This document shows positions 1 through 14,945 of a stretch of 50,724 nucleotides of DNA, in pieces. The stretch spans positions 1 to 50,724 of the forward strand of contig JAJYFE010000010.1 of NCBI GenBank assembly GCA_021785435.1, given 5' to 3'. This DNA comes from Planctomycetota bacterium (GTDB lineage: Bacteria > Planctomycetota > Phycisphaerae > WQYP01). Under the pieces are notes generated by a model, which worked only from the letters and a program-made list of their open reading frames with translations, was not told where the DNA came from and searched no databases. Every line of letters starts with the position of its first letter. Position 1 is the first letter of the stretch. A program made the position numbers and the translations under genes.

Positions 1-130
1 CGTCCAGGCATTGGCGGTCGTCGGCCCGGGGCCGACCACCGCCAAACCGGTGCGTGTTCACGTGCTTGGGCAACAACGGCACGATCTTCTCCCATAGCTC
101 GTCCGACATACGATAACGATTCTTGGTCAT
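1..130 (-). CDS. IS5-family transposase, N-terminal fragment (runs off the window)
   Basis: The start codon is at 130 and the frame stays open to base 1. The visible 43 residues begin MTKNRYRMSDELWEKIVPLL and continue with a Gly/Arg/Pro turn (FGGGRPRADDRQ). This matches the small N-terminal domain (DUF4096-like) of IS5-type transposases, in which 'ELWE.I.PLLP' precedes 'GRP..D.R'. The DDE catalytic part would lie outside the window. It would catalyse cut-and-paste movement of the flanking element. Assignment to the family is by motif recall only. Confidence 0.75.
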   Translation of the reverse strand, partial: MTKNRYRMSDELWEKIVPLLPKHVNTHRFGGGRPRADDRQCLD

Positions 131-200
131 CCGTACTCTCCTGTGGCAACCTTGCCACAGGATTTATACACCAATTACGGGTTATTCGGATAGGCTCTTA
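1..200 (-). mobile_element. End of an IS5-family insertion sequence
   Basis: The element runs off the left edge of the window. Its outer end is the minus-strand sequence beginning TAAGAGCCTATCCGAATAACCC at about 200-179, which resembles the GAGCCTATC..AA-type terminal inverted repeats of IS5-family elements. The transposase start codon lies 50-70 bases inside this end, as is usual for these elements. Only one end is present, so whether the copy is intact cannot be judged. Confidence 0.7.
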
Positions 201-232
201 GATAACGTCAGGCCTGAACGGATCCCGACTAC

Positions 233-284
233 GCGGCCATTTCAAGCGGTTGGTGCATGGGTGTCACGCAGGGCATGACGGGGT
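233..284. repeat. 52-bp imperfect direct repeat, copy 1 (left of the DUF488 unit)
   Basis: This stretch matches 2178-2230 with a perfect 22-base core (248-269 and 2193-2214, beginning GGTTGGTGCATGGGTGTCAC) and about five differences outside the core. The two copies lie in the same orientation on either side of the two-gene DUF488 unit, and copy 1 begins only about 30 bases from the insertion-sequence end. Confidence 0.8.
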
Positions 285-359
285 TGATGTGGAGACAGGA
301 GTACGCGCCGAGACGGAGGGATGCTGTCGGAGGTTTGGCTCACGGGCGCATCCAACATG

Positions 360-1217
360 TCATGCGGAGTCAATGGGGCCGAATAGGCCTGGAGCCGGCG
401 TGGTATTGTGGTCGTAACCTGCAATCTTTGGGTAGAAAACGCCTATGACGCCCCAAGTGTTTGGATGGGCGAGGATGGTTCCCACGAAGAAGTGCGTGCC
501 CCTGTCGGGGCCGCAAAGTTCGCGCAGGAACTTGTCACGCACTTTGTCCGCCGCTTCCTTGTGCGAGCAACCCTGGTCCACAAGTCTCCAGAAGAGCGCG
601 CCGACCTCCCAATCTTCGATCATCAGGCGGTGGCCGCGGCAGCGTGCATCGTCGCAATGGAACGTGTACTGGAACTTAAGGGGTACCTTGCGGGGAGGCT
701 CTTTGCTGACCGTTCGATTCTCCCACAGGCGCGCCTGCAGCAGCGCGGCTTTGAAGCCTGGCCTCCAATCGGCGTCGGCGGCGGAAACAACCAAATCCTC
801 CACGGCTTGGGGTTTGAATATGCCAAGGGACGTTCGGTCAGCCTTTTGCCGGTCGCAGAGTTCCTCCAGCGATGCCGCCTTGTTTACAAGTACGTACCGG
901 GCACGTTCGCCCCAAGCGCCCCGCCCGGTGTCGATCGGATCACCGATAGTGCGGATCGATCCGCAATCTGGCCGGTAGCTTTCTTTTCGCACATCGCGGC
1001 CTTTGTGTTTCCGCGCCAGCACTTCGATCCACTGATATTTTTTGTACTGCTGACTGAAAGGAAGATCGCGGAAATTAATTGGGTAAAGCCGGATGAAATC
1101 GCCGGCTTCGGTCACCCCGGCCGTGCAGACCAGTTCATCATATTTGGCCGAAGGGATTGGATAAGTCTTGACGGTAATTAAAACTTTGAGTTTTTCCATG
1201 CGCCCCACGCTCCGCAT
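360..1217 (-). CDS. Conserved protein of unknown function, partner of the DUF488 protein
   Basis: A 285-residue protein if translation starts at the ATG that overlaps the stop of the upstream gene by one base (TGATG at 1219-1215). A second Met six codons on (1199, MEKLKVLITVKTYP) is the alternative. The N-terminal third is strand-rich (KVLITVKTYPIP, then GDFIRLYPINFRDLP). The C-terminal half contains a CxxxxCxxH cluster (CDDARCRGH), a possible zinc site, followed by a helical stretch. I do not recognise a named domain. Tight coupling to the DUF488 gene says the two products act together. The surroundings (insertion sequence, HicAB, methylase remnant) suggest a defence or stress role, which is inference. 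Confidence 0.7.
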   Translation of the reverse strand: MRSVGRMEKLKVLITVKTYPIPSAKYDELVCTAGVTEAGDFIRLYPINFRDLPFSQQYKKYQWIEVLARKHKGRDVRKESYRPDCGSIRTIGDPIDTGRGAWGERARYVLVNKAASLEELCDRQKADRTSLGIFKPQAVEDLVVSAADADWRPGFKAALLQARLWENRTVSKEPPRKVPLKFQYTFHCDDARCRGHRLMIEDWEVGALFWRLVDQGCSHKEAADKVRDKFLRELCGPDRGTHFFVGTILAHPNTWGVIGVFYPKIAGYDHNTTPAPGLFGPIDSA

Positions 1218-2101
1218 CACAAATGAACGATCTCCAGATCGGCCGCCTTGGCCGCAGCGCTGGCGAGACGGCTGCGGTGGCAACAGCGAACGTCCTTCTC
1301 CACACACAGCAGTGCCGCGGGATGTTTGCGCATCAAAGCGCCAAGTTCTCGCGTTTCAACCGGATGGATAGGAAGCACGGTATGCTCATAGTGGTCCAGA
1401 AGGCGTTGATAGGAGTCATAATCGCTCAGGTCGGCCCGGGCGCTGCCCGGGATGCCCAGACTCGGCACATGGCGATACTCAAGGCCCAGCCGTTTGCAGA
1501 TTTCACCGAGGCGCAGCCGCGAAAAACCGTATTTCCTGGAGACCGGGTTGGCGCGAACATCGACCACAATTTCGATTCCGCGTTTTATCAGGTCGTTGAA
1601 GAACGCATCGACGGATTTGCCTTCATAGCCAACCGTGTACACGGCGGGTGAGGCCTTTCTCGGGCGTTCGACGGACGCCAGGTTGCGCTCGGGCAGTTCG
1701 CTGTTGAGGGCATACCAGGGATAGCGTGTGTACACGCTGTGCACCAATGAATTCTGATGCATGCTCCCATATCGGCGAAGAACATCGGTCACAGCGGCCT
1801 GGACGAGCATGGCCGGCTCGGTGGCCTGGCGATCAGCCGGGTCGTGCGTAAGCTCACTCAACGCAATCGTGTTCTCATCCGGTGCCACGTGGCCTTCCTG
1901 CCGCAGGGCCGCGAGTTCCCGATACAGGGTGAAGGAGAAGGGGCCGTACTTGTAAGGCAGAAAGTCGTAAAAGCTGGGGTCTTGGCGAACGACCGTCTCG
2001 TGGCGGAGTAAAAACACAAGTTTCACAAAGACCGTCGGAGACAGGGGATGCCCCGCTTGCGTAAGGAGATTCAATACCGTCTTCTGGCGCATCAGCAACA
2101 T
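1217..2101 (-). CDS. DUF488-family protein with Panacea/SocA-like N-terminal domain
   Basis: About 294 residues. The N-terminal half (MLLMRQKTVLNLLTQAG, then PYKYGPFSFTLYRELAALR) has the 'kYGPfs..ly..l..L' signature of the Panacea (SocA-like antitoxin) domain. After a linker the C-terminal half has DUF488 hallmarks: YTVGYEGKSVDAFFNDL, VVDVRANPVSRKYGFS and LLCVEKDVRCCHRSRLA (the Cys-x-Cys/His-x-R cluster). The open frame extends to 2272, but the extra N-terminus reads through the flanking direct repeat. The Met at 2101 therefore fits the domain edge better; 2137 is a second candidate. DUF488 biochemistry is not established to my knowledge. The gene is translationally coupled to the downstream unknown, which implies a fixed two-protein module. 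Confidence 0.75.
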   Translation of the reverse strand: MLLMRQKTVLNLLTQAGHPLSPTVFVKLVFLLRHETVVRQDPSFYDFLPYKYGPFSFTLYRELAALRQEGHVAPDENTIALSELTHDPADRQATEPAMLVQAAVTDVLRRYGSMHQNSLVHSVYTRYPWYALNSELPERNLASVERPRKASPAVYTVGYEGKSVDAFFNDLIKRGIEIVVDVRANPVSRKYGFSRLRLGEICKRLGLEYRHVPSLGIPGSARADLSDYDSYQRLLDHYEHTVLPIHPVETRELGALMRKHPAALLCVEKDVRCCHRSRLASAAAKAADLEIVHL

Positions 2102-2177
2102 ATATTTCCGTTTGGCCGCATCCCTGTCGGCCCTCATTCCTATTGGACAACGCCAAGCATGAACAAATTCCGATGAT

Positions 2178-2230
2178 GCGGCCATTTTAGCCGGTTGGTG
2201 CATGGGTGTCACGCGCGGCACGATAGGGTG
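2178..2230. repeat. 52-bp imperfect direct repeat, copy 2 (right of the DUF488 unit)
   Basis: Second copy of the repeat at 233-284, in the same orientation. It lies directly upstream of the DUF488 gene, so the open frame of that gene artificially extends through it. It could be the scar of a duplication or of an element that carried the two-gene unit. Confidence 0.8.
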
Positions 2231-2268
2231 AGCAGGATAGATGGACCGGATAGGTGTTTGCCGTTGCT

Positions 2269-2493
2269 TCACATGTCCAAGAATTGATCTACATCTATTT
2301 GTGCTTCGCGGAGAATGGCCCGGAGGGTGCCTTCAGCCATATCTTTGGCGTGGTGGGGAAGTGTGACTTTGCGTCCCGTCGAGGCGTGCCGCCAGATTTC
2401 ATAGCGTCCGGCCCCGGTACGATCGAAACTCCGCCCGAGGGATCGTAGCTCGGCCGCAACCTGGCGGTACTTAAGACCGGCCAGCCTGCCCAT
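2269..2493 (-). CDS. hicA: HicA-type mRNA interferase toxin
   Basis: A 74-residue protein of YcfA/HicA type. It opens MGRLAGLKYRQVAAELRSLG and carries the fold's conserved core 'E.WRH.STGRKVTLPHH' and a final helix GTLRAILREAQIDVDQFL. HicA toxins are double-stranded-RNA-binding-fold ribonucleases that stop translation until bound by HicB. The length is normal for the family. The gene overlaps hicB by one base (TAATG at 2495-2491), so the antitoxin is translated first and the toxin is coupled to it. The catalytic His is present in the WRHAS segment. The pair looks intact. Confidence 0.85.
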   Translation of the reverse strand: MGRLAGLKYRQVAAELRSLGRSFDRTGAGRYEIWRHASTGRKVTLPHHAKDMAEGTLRAILREAQIDVDQFLDM

Positions 2494-2738
2494 TATGGCA
2501 ACCCAATCGGCACGAGAAGTTCGCGTGGCACAGCGGCCTGCCGACGCAGCGCCTCCGGGAGCAGATCTCCGTGCTCCAGGCAGGATTCGGCGATCTTCCG
2601 CGCCAGGGACTGGGCGATCTGGGCGGCTTCGGTAACCGAACGGCCCTCGGCCACCAACCCTGGTACGTCCGGGCTGGTGGCGACGAAACCGCCCTCCTCC
2701 AAGGGTTCAATGTGCAAGCGAATAATCATCTCGTCCAT
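2493..2738 (-). CDS. hicB: HicB-type antitoxin
   Basis: An 81-residue protein from the Met at 2738 (MDEMIIRLHIEPLEEGGFVA). The longer open frame up to 2771 adds eleven residues without family character. The sequence has the HicB partial RNase-H fold pattern: 'I.PLEEGGFVATSPDVPGLVAEG.SVTEA...A' followed by a C-terminal helix. No separate DNA-binding domain is visible after it, so autoregulation, if present, would use another surface. It neutralises HicA encoded immediately downstream. The bicistronic order antitoxin-toxin with a one-base overlap is less usual than hicA-hicB but occurs in the family. Confidence 0.85.
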   Translation of the reverse strand: MDEMIIRLHIEPLEEGGFVATSPDVPGLVAEGRSVTEAAQIAQSLARKIAESCLEHGDLLPEALRRQAAVPRELLVPIGLP

Positions 2739-2812
2739 GCGGCAGCCTCTAGCGCAGTCTTGAATACACATTTAAGTATAGCACACTGGCTGCCGCGGGT
2801 GAGTTTTCGCTG

Positions 2813-3055
2813 TCACGGGTGGTCCTCCATGGGGAAATCGAGCGATGCCAGGTTTTTGCGAATCTCTTTTTCCAACTTCGCTGATTCGGCGAATTGTTGG
2901 GAGATCTCCGCGGCCAGGCGTGTAATTTTTCCATCGAACGGCTCGCCATCGTCCTGCGCCTGCTCAGTTCGCGGCGCGGCCCCAGGCTCCGGCAAAGCCG
3001 CCTGCCCCCCGGCACGCGCCACCGCGCCTGCCAGTGCCCGTTCGATGTGCTCAGG
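2813..3055 (-). pseudogene. C-terminal remnant of a type I restriction-modification methylase (HsdM)
   Basis: An 80-codon open stretch follows an in-frame stop at 3058-3056. It reads PEHIERALAG, then a low-complexity linker, then 'DDGEPFDGKITRLAAEI', 'QFAESAKLEKEIRKNLASL' and 'DFPMEDHP'. The pattern GEPF(D/E).K...L.......A..LE..I..NL..L is the characteristic C-terminal helical tail of HsdM N6-adenine methylases. Nothing upstream encodes the methylase core, so this is a stump left after deletion. It is direct evidence that a restriction system once stood here. Family assignment is from memory of HsdM C-termini. Confidence 0.5.
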
Positions 3056-3086
3056 CTAATATGCAGCTGCCGTGCCATCGGACGCC

Positions 3087-3398
3087 TTACAGTGCATGGT
3101 TGGCCAGCATCTCAGCCAGAGCGCTGATAATAGCGAGCACGCCGATGAGGATGATGATCTTCATGATGCCGCTGCTTACACCGGCAGCGATGTCCTGGCG
3201 GGACGTCGAGCGGGGAGGCGCCCCCCGCGCCGGCTCGAGCCGCGCATGGCACGCCGCGCAGACCAGGTTGCCGCGCCATGTCCGCGGCGTCTCCAGGCTT
3301 CCGATCCGCTGGTGGCAGTTCGCGCAGCACCTCGCCTCGGGAACCGACTCGCGCCCATCGCCAGGCTCCGTGAACTTCCATCCCGATGGGTTTCCCAT
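3087..3398 (-). CDS. Small zinc-ribbon-like protein with C-terminal membrane anchor
   Basis: A 103-residue protein. The start at 3398 is fixed by a strong ribosome binding site (AAGGAGGCGGATCATG). There is no signal peptide. Residues about 24-55 hold two Cys pairs (CCANCHQRIGSL and LVCAACHARLEP) spaced like a four-Cys zinc ribbon. The last 25 residues (MKIIILIGVLAIISALAEML) form one hydrophobic helix, which suggests a tail-anchored protein with the ribbon in the cytoplasm. Both pairs also read CxxCH, the haem c attachment motif, but with no export signal a cytochrome is unlikely. The function is unknown. Confidence 0.6.
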   Translation of the reverse strand: MGNPSGWKFTEPGDGRESVPEARCCANCHQRIGSLETPRTWRGNLVCAACHARLEPARGAPPRSTSRQDIAAGVSSGIMKIIILIGVLAIISALAEMLANHAL

Positions 3399-3409
3399 GA
3401 TCCGCCTCC

Positions 3410-3724
3410 TTAGTCTTTTTCCTCCGCGCCGCGGCGGCACGCCCGCCCAGCCCTGGAGGGGACCGTTTGGGGCAGCCGCGCGCCCCGCGCGGCTGGATTA
3501 GCTATTTCCGAAGGGAGCGCCATACCTACATCCAATTGCCGCGACTGCCCGTTGCTCGTCGCCCTCGACCCGATAGATGCCTTCCGCTCGCGTGACGGCA
3601 CCCGCCGCATCCCGATATCCCGGCCCCACTGCGGCGTGTTGCGCCGCAGCGCTTCGATCCCGCGATAGCGCCTATTCTGATGCTCCCGCAACGCCAAGCA
3701 GGCAAACAGTTGCGGCAGGGTGAA
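3410..3724 (-). pseudogene. Decayed transposase fragment
   Basis: Without an ATG start, this frame reads FTLPQLFACLALREHQNRRY then RGIEALRRNTPQWGRDIGMRR before losing sense after about residue 60. The pattern 'F.LPQL.A.L.L.......YRG.E.LL...P.W...IGM.RVP' is the N-terminal region of DDE transposases of the IS4/IS5 superfamily. The remainder (rich in Arg, Ala and Gly) looks frame-shifted, and no catalytic part follows. Confidence 0.45.
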
Positions 3725-4153: not shown

Positions 4154-5626
4154 TCACGTGTCGTTCCGGTAGGGATGCGTGATCACTCGATCCGCCGGCT
4201 GGCGAACCAGTTTTCCATCTTGCGTCAAGCCGCAGTCGCGCTGGGCCAACAGCGACACCAGGTGGTGACGCCACAGGTTCAATTGCGGGACATGTTGTGG
4301 GGAGCCGGCCAGATCATGGCATTCGCCCGGATCCGCGGTCAGGTCAAACAGTTGTTCACGGTCCAGATAGGGGAACCAGATATACTTTTCCCGGCCGTCG
4401 GTCAGGTAATGATTGACCTGGTCCGGGTGGTAAGCCAGGCCATGCTCGCCGTGCAGGTAGGGCCGCCAAGAGACATCCTTTTGTCCTCGCACCAGCGCTA
4501 ACAGGCTTTGGCCCTGACAGGTAGACGGCACCGTGAGGCCGGCGGCATCCAGAAGCGTGGGCATCACGTCCCGCAGTTCCACCACCTGCTCCAGCACCTG
4601 CCCGCGCGGCGCCTTCCAGGCATTCGGCAGGCGGACCATCATCGGAATGCGGGTCGCCCCTTCGTAAGCGTAGGTTTTGCGCCACAAGTGATGATCGCCC
4701 AACATGTCGCCATGGTCGGAAAGAAATACCACCAGCGTGTTATCCCAGGCTTCGCGGTGATGGCAGTGCATTTCCAGAAACAGACGGCCAATCTGATGGT
4801 CGATAAAGGTGATGTTGCCGTAGTAGCATGCCCGCGCCCGGCGGATTTCCTCCGCGGAGCGGCGGCCCCGCCAGGCGTCAATTTTTACCGCTTCGGCCGG
4901 ATCGTCATGAACGGACGCCCAGGCCCCGACGTAGGGATCCGGGATGGGCCGGTCTTTATACAAATCGTAGTAGCGCTGCGGCGGATCATAGGGGCTATGC
5001 GGTCGTATAAAGCTTACCTTCAGGAAGAACGGCTTGGTGGGATCGCGTCGATCCAGAAACTCAATGGCCTGCTGGGCCGTCCAGTGCGTCGGGTGCAGGT
5101 GCTCGGGCAGGTGGCTGGGGCGCGCCACCCAGGAGTTCCAATCCAGGCCATGGTCGTGAATTCCGTAGCTTTCCGCCTTGTGCTGCTCGAACCAGCGCTT
5201 GTAGTCGGAAATCTGGCCCGGTTGATCCATATGGTGCTCATCCAAGATCGTATGGTGAAAGCCGTTGAGCGCTCGCGCTGGCGTAAAGTGCATCTTGCCG
5301 ATGCCCTGGGTGTGATAGCCGCCCCGCGCCAGCTCGCCCGGCAGGGTGTGCGCATAATCGGATCGGATCGTCCCCCAGACCCCGGAGTTCATTCCCAACA
5401 GGCCCGTGTGCCACTGGTCCATGCCGGTCAGCAACGTGGCGCGGGCGGGGATACAGGATGGCACCGCACTGTAGGCGTGGCGGAATCGCGTGCCCTCCGC
5501 GGCCAACTGATCCAGATAAGGCGTTTCCAGCACCGGGTGGCCGTCGCAACCCAGACAATCTCCGCGCTGCTGATCGGTCATGATCAGCAGAATATTGGGG
5601 CGGCCTTGTGCGGGGAAATGGATCAT
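4154..5626 (-). CDS. Sulfatase (formylglycine-dependent, S1 family), copy 1
   Basis: A 490-residue alkaline-phosphatase-superfamily sulfatase. It opens with the metal-binding strand RPNILLIMTDQQRGDCLGC. The formylglycine motif is C58-I-P-A-R62 (PSCIPARATLLTG), so activation needs a formylglycine-generating enzyme. Further active-site elements are GIGKMHF, KPFFLKVSFIRPHSPYDPP and the metal-binding FLSDHGDMLGDHHLWRK. No signal peptide is evident, so it may act in the cytoplasm or be exported in another way. The start at 5626 has AAGGATTATT just upstream. It would remove sulfate esters from a sugar or glycan. A close paralogue lies at 20054-21544 (same fold, same C58). The neighbour upstream encodes a secreted GH123-like protein. 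Confidence 0.9.
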   Translation of the reverse strand: MIHFPAQGRPNILLIMTDQQRGDCLGCDGHPVLETPYLDQLAAEGTRFRHAYSAVPSCIPARATLLTGMDQWHTGLLGMNSGVWGTIRSDYAHTLPGELARGGYHTQGIGKMHFTPARALNGFHHTILDEHHMDQPGQISDYKRWFEQHKAESYGIHDHGLDWNSWVARPSHLPEHLHPTHWTAQQAIEFLDRRDPTKPFFLKVSFIRPHSPYDPPQRYYDLYKDRPIPDPYVGAWASVHDDPAEAVKIDAWRGRRSAEEIRRARACYYGNITFIDHQIGRLFLEMHCHHREAWDNTLVVFLSDHGDMLGDHHLWRKTYAYEGATRIPMMVRLPNAWKAPRGQVLEQVVELRDVMPTLLDAAGLTVPSTCQGQSLLALVRGQKDVSWRPYLHGEHGLAYHPDQVNHYLTDGREKYIWFPYLDREQLFDLTADPGECHDLAGSPQHVPQLNLWRHHLVSLLAQRDCGLTQDGKLVRQPADRVITHPYRNDT

Positions 5627-5727
5627 AATAATCCTTGGGCGAACTTCGGGACTTCCCCACTATATTAGGCTTGACCGGTACCGTCCACGTTTCCGCGCCG
5701 TACACGCCGGGGGCGGGGCGTTTGTTT

Positions 5728-7584
5728 TCACTTGCTGGCGTTTTGCAGGGTAATGATCGCCTCGGCAATGTGGCGGCGCAGAGCCTGCCACTGCGCACCG
5801 GTATAGGATTCCGCCAGAGCGTGAATCAGCGGCGATTCGGCGGGCGTGCCGCATCTCGCGTTGAAGCCGCCATTCCACGTTTTCCGGATCTTTTCCAGCG
5901 GCGCGGTGATTCGGTTACGCAGTGCGTCCAGGACCTTCTGTGCGGCGGCAACCGCCTGGGGCTTGGCGTTTTTTTCCTTGGCCATCAGATACTGTAGTGT
6001 CGCGACGTACCGCAAGTCATCGCCGCCTTGGCGCATCGCCTCCCATACCCGAGTCGGCACCAGGTCCAACGGGTGGCCGTTAAGCCCCGGAAACGCCATG
6101 CCGAAGTCGCTCCCGTTTCCGTCGGTATCGTTGTATGGATTGCCCTGGAAGGATTGGTAAATGTAGGGCGCGTTTACGCGAAATGGGCTGACCCATAGAT
6201 AAAACCCGTTGATGATGCGGGCCCATTTAGCGGTGAAGTAGGCGCCGCGATCGTTGTAGTACAACCACGCCACGTCGCCGGCTTTCGCCAGTTCGTGCTT
6301 GTATTCGGCGATTGAGTGTCCCCTCGCTAACCACCACTCGAACGTGTAGCCGTGGTTCGCGAGAATATTCGCGTACGGCTCAACCTCGTGGCGCCACCGA
6401 TCGGCGCGATTATTCTCCGTGTCGATAGTGACGTACAGCGGCACCTGCGGAACCTGCCGCACCGCCTTGGCCAACTCAATGTACCAAGGCAACAGGCCGT
6501 TATTGAACACCTCATCCAAATGCGTGACCGCCAGATGCAGCGTCGGAAACGAGGCTTGGAGGTGAAGCACTTCGAGCATCGCCTGTTTCGCGAGCATCCA
6601 GAAACGCCGATTACGCTTAAGCACCTTGGGGTGGGCCTTCACCTGGTGAAGGCCCAGATAACGGTACAGGTACCGCTCGGCAAGCCCGTCCTGGATGACG
6701 ATCGTGCCGGTCATGCCCGAAGCGCGGATCAGGTCCAGACCTTGGCGCACCGCAGTGAAATCGGGACGGAGCACTTTGCCGCGGAAAACATACTCGATCG
6801 TCAGATCGGTCACCAAGTTGTTTACACCATGGGTCCGCAGATCCTTCAGCCACGCCTTTACGAGGCGGGGATGGTTCAGCGAGCGATCCATGGAGATGTA
6901 AATGCCTAAGCTTTTCGCCGGATTCAGCCGGAGATGAAACGGATAAACCGTCAACCCGATGGGGCATTGGGCTTGCCGGCCCTTTGCCGCGACGATGAGC
7001 CGGCCGTGGTAGTCGCCCGGCTTCGCATTCGCCGGCACGTGGGCGGTCAACCAGATTTCCGCGAACCCATCGGCGGCGATCGACCGCGGCCGCCAGCGTG
7101 GCAGGAAGCGCCCGACGACCCGTGTGTCTGTTGGCGGCGCACTGTACACCTGGCGCACTGGCGTGCGCACCACGCGCCGCACGGTGAAACGACTCGCCGC
7201 AATGGCGGCCCCCTGCGGACCGGTGAGGTCCGTGATGTACACGGTGGCCTTCCCCAGCGCCGCCGACGCCAGAATCAGGCAGGTTGCCGGCACGGCTTCG
7301 CCCGGCGCTGCCGCCAGCGTGACTTGCGGGTGAACGGGAATCCGCGGCGCGACGCTCGGATTGAAGTCGTCGAGGTAGGATTTTGGAACCAACCACATCC
7401 CACTGGCGCTGGCCGGCACCCGGAAGCCAAGCCGATACACGCCCGCCGGTCCGTAGCGGGCGATCTCGGTTCGCCGCCACGGCGGCGGCTTACTACTTGG
7501 CGCCGCACCTGTGGACAATAGACCAGCCACCAGACATCCCAGTGTCGCTAAGAGGGTCATCCGAATCAATACGTGTCTCCTCAT
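5728..7584 (-). CDS. Secreted glycosidase-like protein (GH123/DUF4091 type)
   Basis: A 618-residue protein with an N-terminal signal peptide (RHVLIRMTLLATLGCLVAGLL). Residues about 30-215 are strand-rich, with a bacterial NEW-type beta-sandwich ending GDYHGRLIVAAKG and LTVYPFHLRL. From about 220 a TIM-barrel-like region follows: GIYISMDRSLNHP, then LHLAVTHLDEVFNNG near residue 350. The adjacent Asp-Glu matches the DE pair used by GH123 N-acetylgalactosaminidases in substrate-assisted catalysis. FEWWLARG and WLYYNDRG are further barrel strands. It probably hydrolyses a glycan outside the cytoplasm, next to a sulfatase that may prepare the substrate. Family placement is by pattern, and DUF4091 is an equally good label. 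Confidence 0.65.
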   Translation of the reverse strand: MRRHVLIRMTLLATLGCLVAGLLSTGAAPSSKPPPWRRTEIARYGPAGVYRLGFRVPASASGMWLVPKSYLDDFNPSVAPRIPVHPQVTLAAAPGEAVPATCLILASAALGKATVYITDLTGPQGAAIAASRFTVRRVVRTPVRQVYSAPPTDTRVVGRFLPRWRPRSIAADGFAEIWLTAHVPANAKPGDYHGRLIVAAKGRQAQCPIGLTVYPFHLRLNPAKSLGIYISMDRSLNHPRLVKAWLKDLRTHGVNNLVTDLTIEYVFRGKVLRPDFTAVRQGLDLIRASGMTGTIVIQDGLAERYLYRYLGLHQVKAHPKVLKRNRRFWMLAKQAMLEVLHLQASFPTLHLAVTHLDEVFNNGLLPWYIELAKAVRQVPQVPLYVTIDTENNRADRWRHEVEPYANILANHGYTFEWWLARGHSIAEYKHELAKAGDVAWLYYNDRGAYFTAKWARIINGFYLWVSPFRVNAPYIYQSFQGNPYNDTDGNGSDFGMAFPGLNGHPLDLVPTRVWEAMRQGGDDLRYVATLQYLMAKEKNAKPQAVAAAQKVLDALRNRITAPLEKIRKTWNGGFNARCGTPAESPLIHALAESYTGAQWQALRRHIAEAIITLQNASK

Positions 7585-7713
7585 CTATTATGCCCTGGGA
7601 GTGACTGTCTTTCGGGGAGCGTCGTCGTTCAGGCCGTCCTTCGGGCGGCGCCTGCACAAGCTTCGACGCAGGGTGGCCCCCTGTTCCTTGGCGTGCCGCG
7701 TCACCCCGTCAGG

Positions 7714-9006
7714 TCAATACCACGCGTCACCATTGGCAGCCATGCTGGGATTCACCGTTCGCACTGGCGTCATGCAGGTGTCAAACGGAGGGGCCAGTTC
7801 ATAAAGGTGAGGAGGCAACACCAGCTTTCCACCGGGCAAACCGACCTGGCTGGTGTCCGTCGTGCCGTTGACCACGCCTATCCCGTTGTGGTACGTGAAA
7901 ATATTGTCTCCGTTCTGGCCGACATAAGGCGATATCTCCCACGTCACATGGGCGTCCCCGAACCCCACATTCTGGCCGTCACCGGCATGATTGCCGGAAT
8001 TGTAGATATAGGGACCGTACGTGTTCGCCGTCGGCAGCGTGGTGGTGATCCGTAGGTACACACCTGTAGTGTTGCCGACAGCATCATCTACAGGCGCCAT
8101 ATCGCTGGCCAGCGGCACCTGGGTGGTGGCGCCATTGGTGGTCCACCACTGGCCTGGCATCGGGCTTTGCCCCCAGAATCCAGCATTTTGATGGGCTTCC
8201 CATGGGTATGGATACGCAATGGAATAACTCAATCCTTGGCCGTTTGGATCGACCCAGCTACCACTATTTGTGGCGACGCCTACAAAACCACTGTGTGTAT
8301 AAACACCGAGGCCCCCTGGACTAAAGGAATTGAAATTGACGTTATAATAGGAAGGAGGTGGGGATTGAGTACGATTTACCCATCTTTCGCTCGAGGCACC
8401 TGTGGCCAGCGGATCGGACGGGCAGATGAAACTCGCCGGCGCGGTATACCCTTGGAGGACCAGCAGCCACATGTCGGCGGCGGGGTTAGCGGCATTGTAT
8501 TTGCCGCTAACCAGACTTTTGAACCAGTCTTCCACCGCCGCTTGGGCCGTAGGCGGATTGCTTGCTCCACCGCCGGTGCTGTTACTTTCCAACAGCCCGT
8601 TGGCGTAGTCGTTGCGGGCACCCGTACCGGGCGGGGCTATCGTCGTGGCGGGAAAAGTACCGTTGTTCGACTGGCTGTACGTGATCATCGCCTGGATGAT
8701 CCCGCGCACATTGGCCATGCATACGGCGCGATTGGCCAGTTCCCGAGCTTTCGCCAGCGCCGGCAGCAGGATAGAAACAAGTATCGCGATGATCGAGATC
8801 ACCACCAGCAGCTCGATCAGGGTGAAACCGGATTCCCGCGCGTCCTGACCGCTGGCGGGACGCTGCCAGCGGTTTCCAGTTTCAAACTTGACCAACTCCT
8901 TGTACGTATGGACGACTACAGACCTCCGGCCGCCGCCCAAGCGTCGGAACTCGTGCGAGTGCACCACGGAAACGCCGTCATCCGGAAGTAAATCCTGCCG
9001 TACCAT
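7714..9006 (-). CDS. Type II secretion-like pseudopilin, H-X9-DG type, paralogue 1
   Basis: A 430-residue protein. The start at 9006 is fixed by AAGGAGGTGCCTTATG. A 60-residue charged leader ends ...ARESG, then [20 protein letters not shown] follows as the prepilin cleavage site and hydrophobic helix. The conserved helix [19 protein letters not shown] comes next, then a large beta domain ([30 protein letters not shown]). The C-terminal block is [20 protein letters not shown] followed by [19 protein letters not shown]. Such proteins are abundant in Planctomycetota and Lentisphaerota and are presumed surface or secretion pseudopilins of unknown duty. Two paralogues lie at 28751-31489. The leader is unusually long compared with classical prepilins. 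Confidence 0.8.
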
Positions 9007-9095
9007 AAGGCACCTCCTTGATTATGCGCCCCGAAAAAGCTTGCCCCGGATCACACGACCCGGTCAAAGCCCGCTTCCGCCGGGACGAAAGTTCG
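9007..9095 (-). ncRNA. Putative structured 5' leader of pseudopilin 1
   Basis: Upstream of the ribosome binding site the minus strand carries a hairpin GGGTCGTGTGATCC (9062-9049). It is preceded by GCGGAAGCGGGCTTTGACC and followed by GGGGCAAGC. The same arrangement (GC-rich closing stem, GGCTT/CA..CC arm, GGGTCG..GACCC arm) precedes the two other pseudopilin genes. No known riboswitch consensus was recognised. Confidence 0.45.
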
Positions 9096-9253
9096 TCATG
9101 TCACGCGAAGCCGCAAAACTCGCGAAAATATCCCTCCAATGGTCCCCCAGATCCCCTGCGGAGCTCACTGACTTCGCCGCCGCCATCCCACCTTGGTTTT
9201 CCAATCGGTTCTTCGCACGGTTTATCGACCGCGGCGCCCGCGGAATTCCTCGC

Positions 9254-10513
9254 TCACGTAGCCCCTGAGAGCACCAATTTACGGCCTTCGCATTCCGCCG
9301 CGGCGGCGACGGCCGCGGAAACTGCTGCTCCCGGCATGGGGCCACCCGGGCCCTCCTCCCCGCCACCCTGTGTGGCTCCCACAAGTCGCGAAGGCAGCTT
9401 CGCTTCCGCACACACCACCGGCTCCTTACGCATCAGCTTCAGCAGCGTGTCGCCCATCACCTGCACGTACAGGTCCGGGTCAAACTCCAGTTTCGTCACG
9501 GGAAACGGGACAGTCACGTTGGAGTTGCCCCTCACGAAATGGCTCACCACCGCCAGGTCCCCCGGGACGCGGATCCCGAGTTGGCAAATCGCCGTGGCCG
9601 CCCCGGGAAACAAATTGTCATCGCAGATCAGCAGGCCGTCGGGCTTCTCGCGCTGGGCAGTCCAGATTCGCCGGAAATCTTCCCAGCCCGCCCCCGGGGT
9701 GCAGGGGTGCAGATTCCGCCGAACCCAGCGCGGATTGATTTCTACTCCGCTGGACGCCATGGCGGCCAAGAAGCCCTCGGCCATTTCGTCGCGGTTTCCA
9801 TCCTCCAAGCGACATGGGGGCAGGCGAAATTCCAGCAGCGCGATGCGCCGGCAGCCGCGGTCCAGTAAGTGTTGCGTGCCCATCCGTACGGCGGTGCGAT
9901 AATCAAAGTCAACCCGGGCCTCGATCTCCTCCGCAATTTTTCCCCGTTCCGCCACGACGGGGACGCGATCGGCGCGCAGCGTCTCGAAGCATGGACACCA
10001 CTGCGCGAACGGATGGGGCGGTGTAACCAGGACGGCCAGCCCGCAAAGTTGATGGCGCATGGCCGCCTCCAGAAATTCCGTGCACGCCACCGGTCGCAAA
10101 GACTCGTCGCCCACCGGCACCTCATCGATGTACAGGCGGGCGGAAAAACCGTTGTGCCGCAGGAAGCGGACCAGCCGCTGCGGCACGCGGCGGTAAAAAT
10201 AGGAGGCGTGGGAATCGGAGATATCTCTCTCAACCAGCACCGCCACGTGGCGGTGCTTGGCCAGGTCGCCGACGAAGATGCCGCGGCCGACACGCCTTTC
10301 GATCAGACCCTCCTGGGCCAGGGCGCTTAAACCTTCGCGAATGGTGTGGTAGTTCACTCTAAAACGCTGCGCCAACTCCCGCGCCGTAGACAACCGCTGC
10401 CCCGGCTGGAGGTTGGTGAGAATTTCCCGGCGCAGCACCGCGGCCAGCTGCCTCGACAGAGGATCCGACCTAATTAACATATCTTCATTTATAATAGACT
10501 TATCCGCTCGCAT
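9254..10513 (-). CDS. GntR-type transcription regulator with LacI-like sugar-binding domain
   Basis: A 419-residue regulator. Residues about 14-80 form a GntR winged helix (LSRQLAAVLRREILTNLQPG, then QRLSTARELAQRFRVNYHTI, REGLSALAQEGLIERRVGRG). From about 88 a LacI/RbsR-type periplasmic-binding fold follows (RHVAVLVERDI, TAVRMGTQHLLDRGCRRIAL, KPDGLLICDDNLFPGAATAI, LGIRVPGDLAVVSHF). This is the AraR layout, in which a sugar releases the repressor from DNA. The last 40 residues are low-complexity Gly/Ala. A perfect 7-bp inverted repeat sits 50 bases upstream of the start (10563-10585), and a dead xylulokinase gene lies divergently beyond it. A pentose-type effector is therefore a reasonable inference. 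A second possible start is 10480. Confidence 0.8.
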   Translation of the reverse strand: MRADKSIINEDMLIRSDPLSRQLAAVLRREILTNLQPGQRLSTARELAQRFRVNYHTIREGLSALAQEGLIERRVGRGIFVGDLAKHRHVAVLVERDISDSHASYFYRRVPQRLVRFLRHNGFSARLYIDEVPVGDESLRPVACTEFLEAAMRHQLCGLAVLVTPPHPFAQWCPCFETLRADRVPVVAERGKIAEEIEARVDFDYRTAVRMGTQHLLDRGCRRIALLEFRLPPCRLEDGNRDEMAEGFLAAMASSGVEINPRWVRRNLHPCTPGAGWEDFRRIWTAQREKPDGLLICDDNLFPGAATAICQLGIRVPGDLAVVSHFVRGNSNVTVPFPVTKLEFDPDLYVQVMGDTLLKLMRKEPVVCAEAKLPSRLVGATQGGGEEGPGGPMPGAAVSAAVAAAAECEGRKLVLSGAT

Positions 10514-10562
10514 ACCGCTTCACCGCATTTGCCGCGCCACGCCGCATCCTGCCCAAGCATAG

Positions 10563-10585
10563 GTTGATCCATTGATTAGATCAAC
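10563..10585. promoter_or_regulatory. Candidate operator: GTTGATC-9-GATCAAC inverted repeat
   Basis: Perfect 7-base arms at 10563-10569 and 10579-10585 are separated by nine AT-rich bases. The repeat stands in the short AT-rich gap between the GntR/LacI-type regulator and the divergent xylulokinase remnant. Position and symmetry fit an autoregulatory operator for a dimeric winged-helix protein. No binding data are implied. Confidence 0.45.
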
Positions 10586-10909
10586 TCATGGTTCATTCTA
10601 ATATGCTGCGGATAAGATGTCAAGAGAAAAATTCAAGAACATTCCTCATTCTGCCCAATTTACCATAACTCATTGTACCAACTGCATTTAACGACTTATA
10701 AAACACGCTAGACTACCTCTTTGTGCTCCCTCGCCCCTCATTCATCACGAGACGCGGCGCTATTCGCAGGCGTATATTCTGGACCAGATGAGGAATATTG
10801 TCGCCAGTTGCTCGCCTCGTTCCGAAAAAAACACGCAGTGCGGAATTTATCTGCTATGCCCGGCCCCTGGTGGGATTGCTGCCGGCGCCGGGCCCGTTGA
10901 TTTGAAATG

Positions 10910-11500
10910 TATTACTGGAACTGGATATCATTATCCCCGCCACCGAGGCGTTCCGTCACACGGGCCTGAAACCCTCGCAAACCACCGGCATCGTCTTTCC
11001 GGTCGGATGCATGGCAGCGGCTTCTTGGGGACTGGCCCGTGCCCCCTGCGCCCCGCCCTGCGCTGGAACGACCAACGCACCGTGACCCAGCGCCGCGCCG
11101 TCGAACAAGAATCCGGCGGACGTGGGGAGTTGATCCGCCAGGTCAGCCATCCGGTCTTAACCGGCTTTACCACTCCGAAGATTTTATGGTTTATGCAAAA
11201 CGAACCGGCGTTCTAGGTCCAACACCGGCATATCCCGCTGCCTGAAGATCACATCCGCTATCGACTCCCCGGGGAACATGTGTCGGAAATCTCCGAGGCC
11301 TCCGGCGCGCTGCCACTCAACGTTCGAACGCGCCAGTGGCACGACGCCTTGATCGCGCCCCTGGGCTCGGATGGGTCGATGCTGCCGCCCCCGCTGGAAT
11401 CACCGCGGGTCACGGGCCGTGTCAGGCGACGCGTGGCCGAAAGAACCGGCGTGCCGGAGGGAATAGCGGTGGGGGCTGGGGCAAAACCGAAGTTCGGTCG
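10910..11500 (+). pseudogene. xylB: Xylulokinase (FGGY family) pseudogene
   Basis: The first part, GLKPSQTTGI, is in one frame. The next, LSGRMHGSGFL then LRPALRWNDQRT, is in another, so there is a frameshift near 11000. The second frame continues LTGFTTPKILWFMQNEPAF, hits a TAG at 11214-11216, and then resumes with LPEDHIRYRLPGEHVSEISE, ASGALPLNVRTRQWHD and VTGRVRRRVAERTGVPEG. This series follows the xylulokinase order exactly (GLSGQMHG, LRPAILWND.RT, GFTAPKLLW, LLPKDYIRYRLTGE, SDASGTLLFDV, GTPV.AGAGD). N- and C-terminal parts are missing. It is the only plus-strand sugar gene and faces the regulator at 9254-10513. Confidence 0.75.
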
Positions 11501-12300
11501 CAACATCATGCATTTGGATCCGTAAGTGTATGGGTGCGGCGGATAGGGCTTTGTAGATTCATTTATGTAAACATGTGCATATCGGTGATATGCTTGACAC
11601 ATGATAGCTCCCTCCGACTCTTGAGAAAAGGCTGAAAAAGTGTGGGTGTTGCCGGAAATCCAGCCAGTACTTCTAAAATAATATGCGCTGCGCGACGGCC
11701 TTTATTTATTGGGGACCGGGGCTGGCCCGATGGCCATCGGGATTGGCCCAGTCGCCGGTCTGGGCGCCGGGTTAACTGCAGTAAGTGCGCCACGCCTAAC
11801 AGACTGTAAAGCAACGACTTACGCTCGTCAGAGGGGGAAGTTGGATTGATCGGCAGCCTCTCGATTAGGAGCGGGATCAGCGGTCGGAAAAGAACTTGTT
11901 GATTCTCACGGACGCCCCGCGAACCCCAGCCCGCCGTGGACTGGTACGGCTTGGTCAGCACTTGGCTTTCGGGTACCCCGGCCGCCGCCGTTCACCGGGT
12001 CGCCGCGGGCGACTTGTTGCGGCGACCCAAAGGCCGGTGATTCGGGTTCGGTGGCGAGTCTGGGGCTCTTTCTCCAACCCGAAATTTATCGTTTGACAAG
12101 GCACGAGTTGGAACAACCAGGTCCAGGCCGCGGGTCCCTGTTGGCAGAGCATGTACCAAATAGTTGTACAACCCTGCATGTTCGCCCGCGGACCGGCCAC
12201 GCCCGGCATAGGTCGCCGCGGCGATGTCTTCGACGCAGGGTCTCTGTACCTGGATGGGGCTTTGAAAATGATCCGTAGAGGCGACGCTTTCGTCGGCTCC
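11501..12300. other. Gene-free stretch with one strong hairpin
   Basis: No convincing gene. Several frames are open for 100 codons or so, but they overlap on both strands and show no motif. A perfect 10-bp stem, GGGTCGCCGC / GCGGCGACCC with a 12-base loop, lies at 11997-12028. It resembles the GTCGCC..GGCGAC hairpins repeated elsewhere in the window. The minus strand near 12270-12080 reads like protein in places, but with no recognisable family. Confidence 0.4.
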
Positions 12301-12304
12301 TCGC

Positions 12305-12405
12305 ATGGCCGATGAGGGCATCGGCCCTACATGCCGATGAGGGCATCGGCCCTACATGCCGATGGGGGCATCGGCCCTACATGCCGATGGGGGCATCGGC
12401 CCTAT
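12305..12405. repeat. Four tandem 25-bp hairpin units
   Basis: The units start at 12305, 12331, 12356 and 12381 (26, 25, 25, 25 bases). Each contains the palindrome GCCGATG-(A/G)GGG-CATCGGC followed by CCTA(C/T). The copies differ at only a few positions, so amplification is recent. The array lies about 70 bases downstream of the SMP-30 gene stop. A related single hairpin (AGCCGAC..GTCGGCT) is inserted in the CBM9-like gene at 28296-28315. Confidence 0.85.
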
Positions 12406-12475
12406 AGGCGCTACAATGCCGTTGGAACATTCGTTTCCTGGCGAAACATGTAGATTGATCCGCCCATTTGCTGCA

Positions 12476-13309
12476 TCAGGGCGCCAGCGCCAGCAGGCCC
12501 GGCCGACGCCAGCGCGTTTTCCAGACGGCGTGGTTGGTGTGCTCGGTGATCCATAAATCGCAGCCGTCGACGCCGCCGAAATGCAGATTCGATGGTTTGG
12601 CGAATGGCAGGGCGATCCGCTCGACGGGCGCGCCGGCGGAATCGAAAACCTCGATCCATCCCCCACCCCAGTTGGTCGCCAGCAGATTTCCGTCCACATC
12701 CAAATCCAAGCCGTCCGGTCCGCCGTGGTGGTCACCAGTGAGTGTCGCCCACAGGCGTTTATTGGCCACGCGACCCGGGCCAAGGATGTCGTAGGCCCAC
12801 AGTTTCTTGACATAGGTTTCGGCGACGATGAGCGTTCGCCCATCGGCGGTAACGGCAATGCCGTTGGAAAAGGCAAAACCGCCATCAAGACGCACGACCC
12901 GTCCAGTGGCACAGCGTGTGAACACTTCTCCCACCGGCTTTTCGATGCTGGAGCCGGCCGGCGCCGTGAAGTACAAATTGCCCGCCGGATCAAAGCACAG
13001 ATCGTTGCAACCGCGGATCGGCTGTTCCTCATAAGTGTCGATGATCCGCTCGACTTTTCCGTCAGGGCTGACGCGACAGATACCCAGTTTCATATCCGCC
13101 ACCCAGAGATGGTCTGCTTCGTCCACCATTAAACCCGCGGGGATGCCCCCGGTGTTGGCGTGCTCGCGCAGCTGGCCAACGGGTTGCACCTCCAGCACCG
13201 AACCCTGGCCTGGTGCGACCACGAAAAACCTTCCCTGGTGATCGAATATCGGCCCTTCCGCCCCCCGGATGCCAGTGGCCACCTGCGTAAACTGAAAACT
13301 TTCGGACAT
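12476..13309 (-). CDS. SMP-30/gluconolactonase-family lactonase
   Basis: A 277-residue six-bladed propeller protein. The start at 13309 follows AAGAGGAGCCAACGCT. Family elements in order are GIRGAEGPIFDHQGRFF (metal-ligand Glu), GGIPAGLMVDEADHLWVAD, RGCNDLCFDPAGNLYFTAPA (ligand Asn), FSNGIAVTADGRTLIVAET (Asn/Asp) and GGPDGLDLDVDGNLLATNWG. These enzymes open aldono- or aldaro-lactones with a divalent metal. It is the last gene of the sugar-acid run, after an MFS transporter, and its likely job is to hydrolyse the lactone formed by one of the dehydrogenases encoded upstream. The exact substrate cannot be read from the sequence. Confidence 0.85.
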   Translation of the reverse strand: MSESFQFTQVATGIRGAEGPIFDHQGRFFVVAPGQGSVLEVQPVGQLREHANTGGIPAGLMVDEADHLWVADMKLGICRVSPDGKVERIIDTYEEQPIRGCNDLCFDPAGNLYFTAPAGSSIEKPVGEVFTRCATGRVVRLDGGFAFSNGIAVTADGRTLIVAETYVKKLWAYDILGPGRVANKRLWATLTGDHHGGPDGLDLDVDGNLLATNWGGGWIEVFDSAGAPVERIALPFAKPSNLHFGGVDGCDLWITEHTNHAVWKTRWRRPGLLALAP

Positions 13310-13372
13310 AGCGTTGGCTCCTCTTCGTGAAAATACAGGCTGGCGCCAGTGGTGGGCGGATGGCGCAGCGCC

Positions 13373-13441
13373 GCGGGTCCTTTACTGTTCCCACTCCCGG
13401 CAAGGTCGCCAAAGGCGACTCTTCGACCGGGGGCTATATAA
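13373..13441 (+). repeat. Dispersed intergenic repeat, GGGGGCTATATA family
   Basis: It reads CACTCCCGGCAAGGTCGCC, AAAGGCGACTCTTCGACC and GGGGGCTATATA, with the internal GTCGCC..GGCGAC hairpin. It is a short version of the elements at 18721-18838 and 19861-19992, and lies between two minus-strand genes. Confidence 0.7.
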
Positions 13442-13460
13442 CATTGGGCGGTGCAGGTCA

Positions 13461-14945
13461 CTACAACTCCGGCCGGGGCTGGTGGGGCTTCGCGGCGCTG
13501 GCGTCCACGGGCGGGGCCACATAATTTTTCGCACCGCCGTAACGGCGCCATCCGCGGTAGACCAACAGCAGCACCAAAAGGGCGGGAATCGTCATCACCG
13601 CTTGCCAGAAGAACGCATAGCGGTAGTTTCCCATCCAATCCAGGAAAACGCCAGCCAACGGGGGCACCAGAATCATCACCACGGATTGGAATGCCGCCTG
13701 GGCGGAGCAAAACTGGCCGTAGCGATCCGCGGGAAGCAGCGAGGCGTACATCGGAAGATTGGCCGCGAGGAAGAAAGCGGCAGGCACCTGCGCCACCAAC
13801 AGAAAAATCAACATGGTCCGTTCATTGTGGATGCAAAAAAAACAGAGAAAGGCGGTCACCGAACTGGCCGCATAAACAGCCAGGCTCACCCGCAATGGAT
13901 GGAGTTTATCACAAATCCACCCGGCGGGAATCAACAGCAGGAAGGTGAGAACGATGGTCCAGGAGAGGACTTGGCCGATCTGTTCCAGCGAGAGTTTGAG
14001 CGTGTCGCGATAAAAGAAAATCAGAAACACGCTGGTGCTGGAGGCCATGTTGAAAAGGCTGGTGCTCAGAAAGAACCATACGTAGTAAGGATTGCGGAAG
14101 CATTCCCTAAAATAGGTCCTGACCATTCCGACGGCCCCCCCGCCGGGTCCGCGCGGCATCAGCGGCGGGGGTGGATATCGCCCTTCCTTGACCCGCAGGC
14201 ACATGAGCATGAAGGCCGTGAAGTAGAACACCCCGATGCCGATAAAGATGGCTTTCATATGGGTGCTGGCCAGGCCGAAGATATAGTAGTTCCAGATCCA
14301 TCCGCCGCCGGTGGCGGCAAACTGAAACAGGGAGATGAACCGCCCCAGGAAAGCCTGCGGTACGACATCGGCCCACAGGTAATAATAGACGGAACCCACA
14401 AACATATTGAAAACCTGAAATCCGACCATGCAAATGCCCAGGACAATCAGAATGGCCCAGGCCCTGGACAGGGTCAGGCCGGGGCGGAGGGTCGCCACGT
14501 GGTGCAGCCAGGTTCCAAGGTCCGTGCTGTACGCGGTGAGAACCAGAAACAGGGCGATGAAAGGCGTAGGCCAGAAGAGAAAGGGTATCCGGCGGCCGCG
14601 CGGTCCGCGATGGCGGTCGCTCCAGGTGCTGATGATGGGACACAGGATCATGTTCAGCGCGGCGGGAATACTCACGACAATCAAACCGATGGTGAAGTTG
14701 GAGGCGTGGGCGCTCTTGAGTTTCAGCGGCAGCAGGGCCGGCATCACCAGTTCCATCAGCCGCAGGCAGAACCCACCCCACAAGAGCCAGAAGAACACGG
14801 CCACCAGCCCCATTTTGGTGTAGAGAAGTGTGCCGGCTTGATAGGTTCGCTTCGGTACCGGCGGAGCCTGCGCGGAGGGAAGCGATTCGCACGCCGCCGC
14901 GTCAGGCGCGGGTAGGTGCTGGAGCGATTGGTCAGGACAGCTCAT
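13461..14945 (-). CDS. MFS transporter
   Basis: A 494-residue membrane protein with about 12 hydrophobic helices (for example MGLVAVFFWLLWGGFCLRL, ALFLVLTAYSTDLG, AWAILIVLGICMVGFQVF, MLIFLLVAQVPAAFFLAANL). The cytoplasmic loop after helix 2 or 3 is STWSDRHRGPRGRRIPFLFW, which matches the sugar-cation symporter/sucrose-transporter-like MFS signature (D.....GRRRPfi). It presumably imports the substrate or a breakdown product handled by the surrounding sugar-acid genes. The cytosolic N-terminal 38 residues are Pro/Ala-rich. The start at 14945 has only a weak upstream Shine-Dalgarno (TCCTT). Spacing to the ornithine-cyclodeaminase-like gene is 26 bases, so the two are probably co-transcribed. Confidence 0.85.
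   Translation of the reverse strand: MSCPDQSLQHLPAPDAAACESLPSAQAPPVPKRTYQAGTLLYTKMGLVAVFFWLLWGGFCLRLMELVMPALLPLKLKSAHASNFTIGLIVVSIPAALNMILCPIISTWSDRHRGPRGRRIPFLFWPTPFIALFLVLTAYSTDLGTWLHHVATLRPGLTLSRAWAILIVLGICMVGFQVFNMFVGSVYYYLWADVVPQAFLGRFISLFQFAATGGGWIWNYYIFGLASTHMKAIFIGIGVFYFTAFMLMCLRVKEGRYPPPPLMPRGPGGGAVGMVRTYFRECFRNPYYVWFFLSTSLFNMASSTSVFLIFFYRDTLKLSLEQIGQVLSWTIVLTFLLLIPAGWICDKLHPLRVSLAVYAASSVTAFLCFFCIHNERTMLIFLLVAQVPAAFFLAANLPMYASLLPADRYGQFCSAQAAFQSVVMILVPPLAGVFLDWMGNYRYAFFWQAVMTIPALLVLLLVYRGWRRYGGAKNYVAPPVDASAAKPHQPRPEL

Follow-up and report, generated by a model that had tools for sequence, protein, structure and literature searches.

A repeat-flanked copy of the candidate defense system PDC-M19 pairs a DUF488 gene with a predicted dual OB-fold gene

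The window studied here, i.e. the whole stretch of 50,724 nucleotides that was analyzed, begins at the first base of its contig and carries close to this edge two adjacent genes, called A and B hereafter. Read on the minus strand from 3022 to 1, the order is HsdM tail, HicB, HicA, repeat, gene A, gene B, repeat, and the end of an IS5-type element located at the contig edge (Table 1). The first-pass annotation had described this pair together with the repeats, the IS5 fragment, HicAB, and the HsdM tail, and we found all of them, with the DUF4096 and HicB matches being below the cut-off. The subjects matched by the HsdM tail in tblastn correspond to the hsdM/hsdS junction in plasmids. Direct reading of the sequence also bore out the junction of the two genes by a TGATG overlap (1219-1215, minus strand), in which the stop codon TGA of the DUF488 reading frame is shared with the first ATG of B. 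Alignment with relatives places the start of A at 2101, and a 351-aa reading frame running through the right-hand repeat is unsupported. Gene B encodes 285 aa from the TGATG start, or 279 aa from an ATG at 1199 that is conserved in the family. Both genes are open and keep all the family-invariant residues: the window locus is an intact PDC-M19 copy.

Table 1. Position of the features around the gene pair in the window
Feature	Coordinates	Strand	Description
Gene A (PDC-M19A)	1217..2101	-	294 aa; DarG/Panacea-like N-terminus and DUF488 C-terminus
Gene B (PDC-M19B)	360..1217	-	Predicted dual OB-fold-like; 285 aa
Left direct repeat	195..284		3' of B, adjoining the IS5 fragment; 78% to the right copy over 90 nt
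Right direct repeat	2140..2229		5' of A; near end 39 nt from the start codon of A
IS5-type element end and transposase gene start	1..195	-	DUF4096 (IS4/5), 6.6e-7, below curated cut-off
HicA toxin gene	2269..2493	-	Pfam HicA_toxin, 1.8e-11
HicB-like antitoxin gene	2493..2735	-	Pfam HicB_lk_antitox, 5.2e-4, below cut-off; gene order with HicA
HsdM C-terminal tail (stump)	2813..3022	-	tblastn 5e-8, C-terminal end of type I MTases

The pair was initially thought to be undescribed, which is wrong. A search with hmmscan against PADLOC identified gene A as PDC-M19A (6.7e-80) and gene B as PDC-M19B (2.7e-78), the two components of a candidate defense system in PADLOC-DB 2.0.0 (models PDLC04504-04508), and both families are present in PHROGs. 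We take the name PDC-M19 to stand for a multi-gene 'phage defence candidate'. A full-text literature search found no paper naming PDC-M19, and, among the papers with DUF488 that were retrieved and judged by title and abstract, none tests the A-B pair.

The DUF488 domain attributed to gene A was confirmed by Pfam (PF04343, E-value of 5.9e-21), which places it at residues 180-297 when 310 aa are read. In the 294-aa reading, it covers approximately residues 153-294 and follows a DarG/Panacea-like N-terminal domain at approximately residues 1-145. The likeness of the latter to Panacea is weak in sequence and draws support from a remote fold match. The best PDB match of the AlphaFold2 (AF2) model (pLDDT of 95) in Foldseek is DarG of M. 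tuberculosis (7yk3, E-value of 7.5e-4, probability 1.00, TM of 0.30/0.46, the aligned residues being unspecified), whereas sequence profiles gave weak matches (NCBIfam SocA, 0.0087, with 15.7 bits for a curated cut-off of 190 bits; DarG, 0.096) and there was no Pfam DUF4065 match at E<=1. After DarG, the model has weak matches to folds of the protein tyrosine phosphatase (PTP) type. Five residues of A (C266, E268, C274, H275, and R276) are invariant among 78 sequences. In the AF2 model they form a CxE...CHR loop between a strand (262-266) and a helix (275-287), where the P-loop of a phosphatase would sit, with a longer spacing. We infer from the model that catalysis by the DUF488 domain would take place at this loop, and that DUF488 is probably a phosphate- or nucleotide-processing enzyme domain. 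Burroughs and Aravind reportedly placed, in 2023, a RapZ-C/DUF488/DUF4326 clade in the rhodanese-phosphatase superfamily and predicted a role in DNA-end processing.

Gene B has no match in Pfam in its window version, and searches of PDB sequences with the profiles of either A or B gave no significant match. From its AF2 model (pLDDT of 87, poor at residues 16-22), we predict that B has two OB folds and resembles single-stranded DNA (ssDNA) binders. The Foldseek matches are to ssDNA and telomere-end binders (TEBP-alpha, LEF-3, IFI16, and POT1), led by the multi-OB proteins TEBP-alpha (1.9e-4) and LEF-3 (2.6e-4), and the baculovirus LEF-3 is also the best match in the viral structure library. 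These matches are remote, as are those of A (TM of 0.2-0.4 for both), and the sequence identity of B to the matched folds is 6-10%. The Pfam family DuOB ('dual OB') matches three divergent B proteins below the cut-off (0.0006-0.002) and none of 76 B members, including the one of the window, at E<=0.1. Translation and the binding of proteins are further roles of OB folds. The CxxxxCxxH cluster noticed in B is real and is part of a putative four-ligand zinc site of CCHC type (C182, C187, H190, and C229 in the 279-aa numbering). The site is complete in 26 of the 76 B proteins, reduced to CCH- in one, and absent from 49; the CxxxxCxxH part is present in Sulfolobus B. Since it is missing from the Bacteroidota-type clade, the site is clade-specific and not essential, and its all-or-none distribution by clade rules it out as a family-wide catalytic feature.

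To characterize the association between the two genes, we scanned for B alone, which gave 79 loci in species genomes and 4 in viral contigs. Together with those from relatives, the phylum, plasmids, and phages, this makes a set of 118 B loci. Far from occurring mostly without DUF488, B has one within 400 bp in 113 of them. Two of the other five are cut by or at contig ends (L022 and L126) and two are fragments (L076 and L128), which leaves the S. islandicus plasmid pSOG2, where no DUF488 was found over the whole plasmid, as the sole genuine exception. The distance matrices of A and B have a correlation of 0.88, a value reached in none of 1000 permutations. The 113 coupled loci show four arrangements: A with an N-terminal extension followed by B (91 loci), DUF488 with a short or no extension followed by B (5 loci, of which two have a partial A), B followed by DUF488 (9 loci), and convergent B and DUF488 (8 loci). 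The N-terminal partner of DUF488 varies as well, being DarG/Panacea-like in the window, XRE-HTH in Streptomyces, ParB_N-HTH_ParB in S. shibatae, or absent. In the Gordonia phage Nymphadora (L097:4027-8095), B and DUF488 are convergent and are framed by gp44, annotated as the immunity repressor, and the integrase gp39; the DUF488 gene is gp42 (L097:5825-6274), annotated as a possible HipA toxin. Comparisons with hhalign ruled out that gp44, or a Sulfolobus protein of 168 aa, is a hidden DUF488 partner.

These arrangements bear on the idea that the pair is a toxin-antitoxin system, in which the Panacea/DarG-like half of A would neutralize B or DUF488 and the unit would be kept by addiction. The DarG/SocA-like N-terminal domain of A, the two short overlapping genes, the vicinity of HicAB, and the description of Panacea domains as promiscuous antitoxins (PMC8832971) all speak for it. 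However, about 20 loci couple B to a DUF488 that lacks the DarG/Panacea-like domain, and antitoxin-first co-transcription is impossible in the eight convergent pairs. Given that a Panacea-like domain is not always present and that convergent pairs exist, the toxin control proposed in the first-pass annotation is weakened and fits less well. The lack of a DUF4065 match in A also counts against it, and A and B are strongly conserved and have the size of enzymes or binders, unlike small type II toxins. Overall, we regard addiction as an unlikely explanation of the pair.

The taxonomic distribution of the pair spans bacteria, archaea, plasmids (including conjugative ones), and temperate phages. 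It is patchy within the phylum, at odds with vertical inheritance: B is present in 10 of the 61 relatives and in 13 of the 392 phylum genomes, according to searches that used different queries and cut-offs. Phyla are interleaved in the tree of B, where the clade of the window mixes Planctomycetota, Acidobacteriota, Desulfobacterales, SAR324, and viral contigs, with bootstrap values that are not fully settled. We read this distribution as the result of transfer and not of strict vertical descent. Together with the coupling of the two genes, the plasmid, phage, and archaeal copies, and the repeats, it supports the suggestion of a mobile two-protein unit. In some relatives, B is split into two frames or has an internal stop (L087/L096, L093, and L125/L127), which suggests frequent loss, or else assembly errors. 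Phage terminase genes adjoin the pair in two loci (L018 and L083).

Carriage by mobile elements could also mean that the pair is not a defense system but a repair, plasmid-maintenance, or replication-support module of these elements, with B acting as an SSB-like factor. On the S. shibatae plasmid pBEU9E1 (L130:4933-7349), the ParB_N-HTH_ParB-DUF488 fusion lies directly upstream of B, genes encoding KfrA or relaxases are found near the pair on some plasmids, and an archaeal ParB-DUF488-HTH fusion binds CTP (PMC12704722). This module remains an unlikely account of the pair, because most B copies are chromosomal, in genomes where their presence is patchy, and because the pair of Gordonia phages, being beside the integrase and the immunity repressor, is in the lysogeny and not in the replication region. 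Downstream on pBEU9E1 comes a protein of 163 aa that has the stretch AFEAKL and may be nuclease-like; its 60% identical counterpart is located after B in pSOG2 (L106:6852-7358).

The association with defense genes is real in some loci but is not the rule. Among the 136 nearest neighbours, several match models of type IIG, type II, BREX PglX, DISARM, or type I systems, seven have an Eco57I domain, and the PADLOC counts per family are higher than among 136 far neighbours. A methylase-like motif was found in 6 of 213 neighbours within 3.5 kb and in 1 of 65 at 6.5-10 kb, which is a small difference. Most immediate neighbours are not defense genes, and the majority of neighbours are ordinary metabolic genes. 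DUF488 also occurs as a lone family of housekeeping type. A chromosomal pair involved in nucleotide or RNA metabolism, spreading by transfer without any role in conflicts, would agree with these neighbours and with the lone DUF488 family, but plasmid and phage carriage, patchiness, the association in PADLOC, and the truncated or frameshifted copies in relatives (L076 and those cited above) make it very improbable.

The direct repeats reported around the pair are real: they have 78% identity over 90 nt and a longest exact run of 23 nt, the left one lying about 75 nt past the stop codon of B, and shuffling gives an expectation of zero for the pattern of their core. They do not belong to a genome-wide repeat family, since only these two copies exist in the 4.4-Mb assembly, and they have no long match in 298 genomes of the class nor in plasmids. 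Bracketing by insertion sequences was rejected, as the IS5 fragment is on the left side only. With regard to an integron gene cassette with attC sites, no clear R'/R'' boxes were seen by eye in the repeats, and the tyrosine-recombinase matches found elsewhere in the genome include none typed as IntI. Mismatches number 5/8/7 at the three codon positions, without a clear pattern, and the reading of the repeat as a decayed gene tail is unproven.

Two flanks of 800 bp, one upstream of A and the other downstream of B, were compared with each other in the 71 loci having at least 300 bp on both sides. The flanks match each other in seven loci (L023, L024, L027, L041, L070, L081, and the window), whereas only 4 of 4970 cross-locus control pairs match, two of the four being the sister loci L023 and L024 in both directions. 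Hence, bracketing is not due to chance, yet it concerns a minority of the loci. The repeats of four of the seven include tails of restriction-modification-type genes, the other three loci being L041, L081, and the window. The repeat of L024 corresponds to the 3' end of an Eco57I-type methylase. In L027, the repeated tail comes from a gene reading as DUF4391, behind a helicase, and in L070 the pair is surrounded by partial repeats, with a DUF4268 fragment on its upstream side. Three other loci (L050, L052, and L077) have inverted transposase-like matches and were left out of the tail-copy count.

Behind a type IIG methylase, the L024 locus (4420-14705) has five small cargo units in a row, each different from the others: DUF6978 with DUF1828/1829, PDC-M19, DUF6338, DUF3800, and MerR-DUF433 with DUF5615. 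Copies of the methylase tail lie between the units, at 7257, 8813, 10895, and 12041, with partial ones at 13270 and 14661. Three of the units are closed by a complete or almost complete copy, and the remaining two by a partial one. In L023 (1439-8446), a cargo gene that encodes an adenylate/guanylate cyclase domain (1917-3638) is likewise flanked by copies of the methylase tail. As for the window, HicBA lies right behind the HsdM tail (2269-3022, minus strand), which is the position of cargo behind restriction-modification tails in L024 and L027. A tentative scenario, which we hold to be rather improbable, is that PDC-M19, like other small units of the defense or toxin-antitoxin type, spreads as a cassette with copies of the 3' tail of a restriction-modification gene on its two sides, in integron-like arrays built on gene tails, the window being a decayed example. 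The HsdM tail beside HicBA fits this picture without being a proof of it.

Considering all of the above, a nucleic-acid-targeting module for defense or superinfection exclusion fits the pair best, and we infer its role in immunity from context. We find it plausible, with the balance close to even, that PDC-M19 is a horizontally mobile two-protein conflict module acting on nucleic acid. This reading draws on the coupling of the genes and the correlation between A and B, the interleaved phyla and patchiness, the fold of B, the DUF488 motif, the position in the lysogeny region of Gordonia phages, some type IIG, BREX, and type I neighbours, and the candidacy in PADLOC. Against it stand the mostly non-defense neighbours, the modest contrast between near and far genes, the remoteness of the fold matches, and the broad use of OB folds. 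In such a module, B would use its OB groove to bind the ssDNA or the DNA ends of a genome that is invading or replicating, and would bring in or activate the DUF488 enzyme. The latter would act on nucleotides or on the ends of nucleic acids, by transferring or removing a phosphate or a nucleotide group. The swappable N-terminal domain might serve for docking or regulation, tethering the enzyme to DNA or restraining it. The overall outcome would be the exclusion of phages or competing plasmids.

PDC-M19 is widespread across bacterial phyla, archaea, plasmids, and temperate phages, and PADLOC lists no function for it. The structure models provide a new clue, i.e. a B predicted to fold like ssDNA binders and an A with a probable phosphate- or nucleotide-processing domain. 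The predicted OB partner and the swappable DNA-bound N-terminal domains lead to the testable hypothesis of a nucleic-acid-guided DUF488 enzyme. In addition, the bracketing repeats, which in some loci are copied tails of restriction genes, suggest a route for the insertion of small units behind defense genes.

The comparison with known systems gives partial likenesses for each protein. Gene A has in common with the rhodanese-phosphatase superfamily its DUF488 domain and a Cys loop between a strand and a helix, and its weak fold matches in this comparison are to PTPs, DUF442, RapZ, and diphthine synthase; its motif is CxE-(5)-CHR, in contrast with the Cx5R loop of PTPs. The likeness to DarG/Panacea (SocA) lies in the top structural match and the weak SocA and DarG profile matches, but A is below the sequence thresholds and is fused to DUF488, and the domain is dispensable in other pairs. 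Gene B resembles DuOB (PF22557), TEBP-alpha, LEF-3, and POT1 in its predicted fold, and differs from DuOB in sequence, the window protein having no Pfam match and the divergent ones matching below the cut-off. The closest system is PDC-M19 itself: the two window genes form an adjacent pair and align with the M19A and M19B models over almost their whole length, and the window copy adds to the PADLOC entry the flanking repeats, HicAB, and the tail of a restriction-modification gene.
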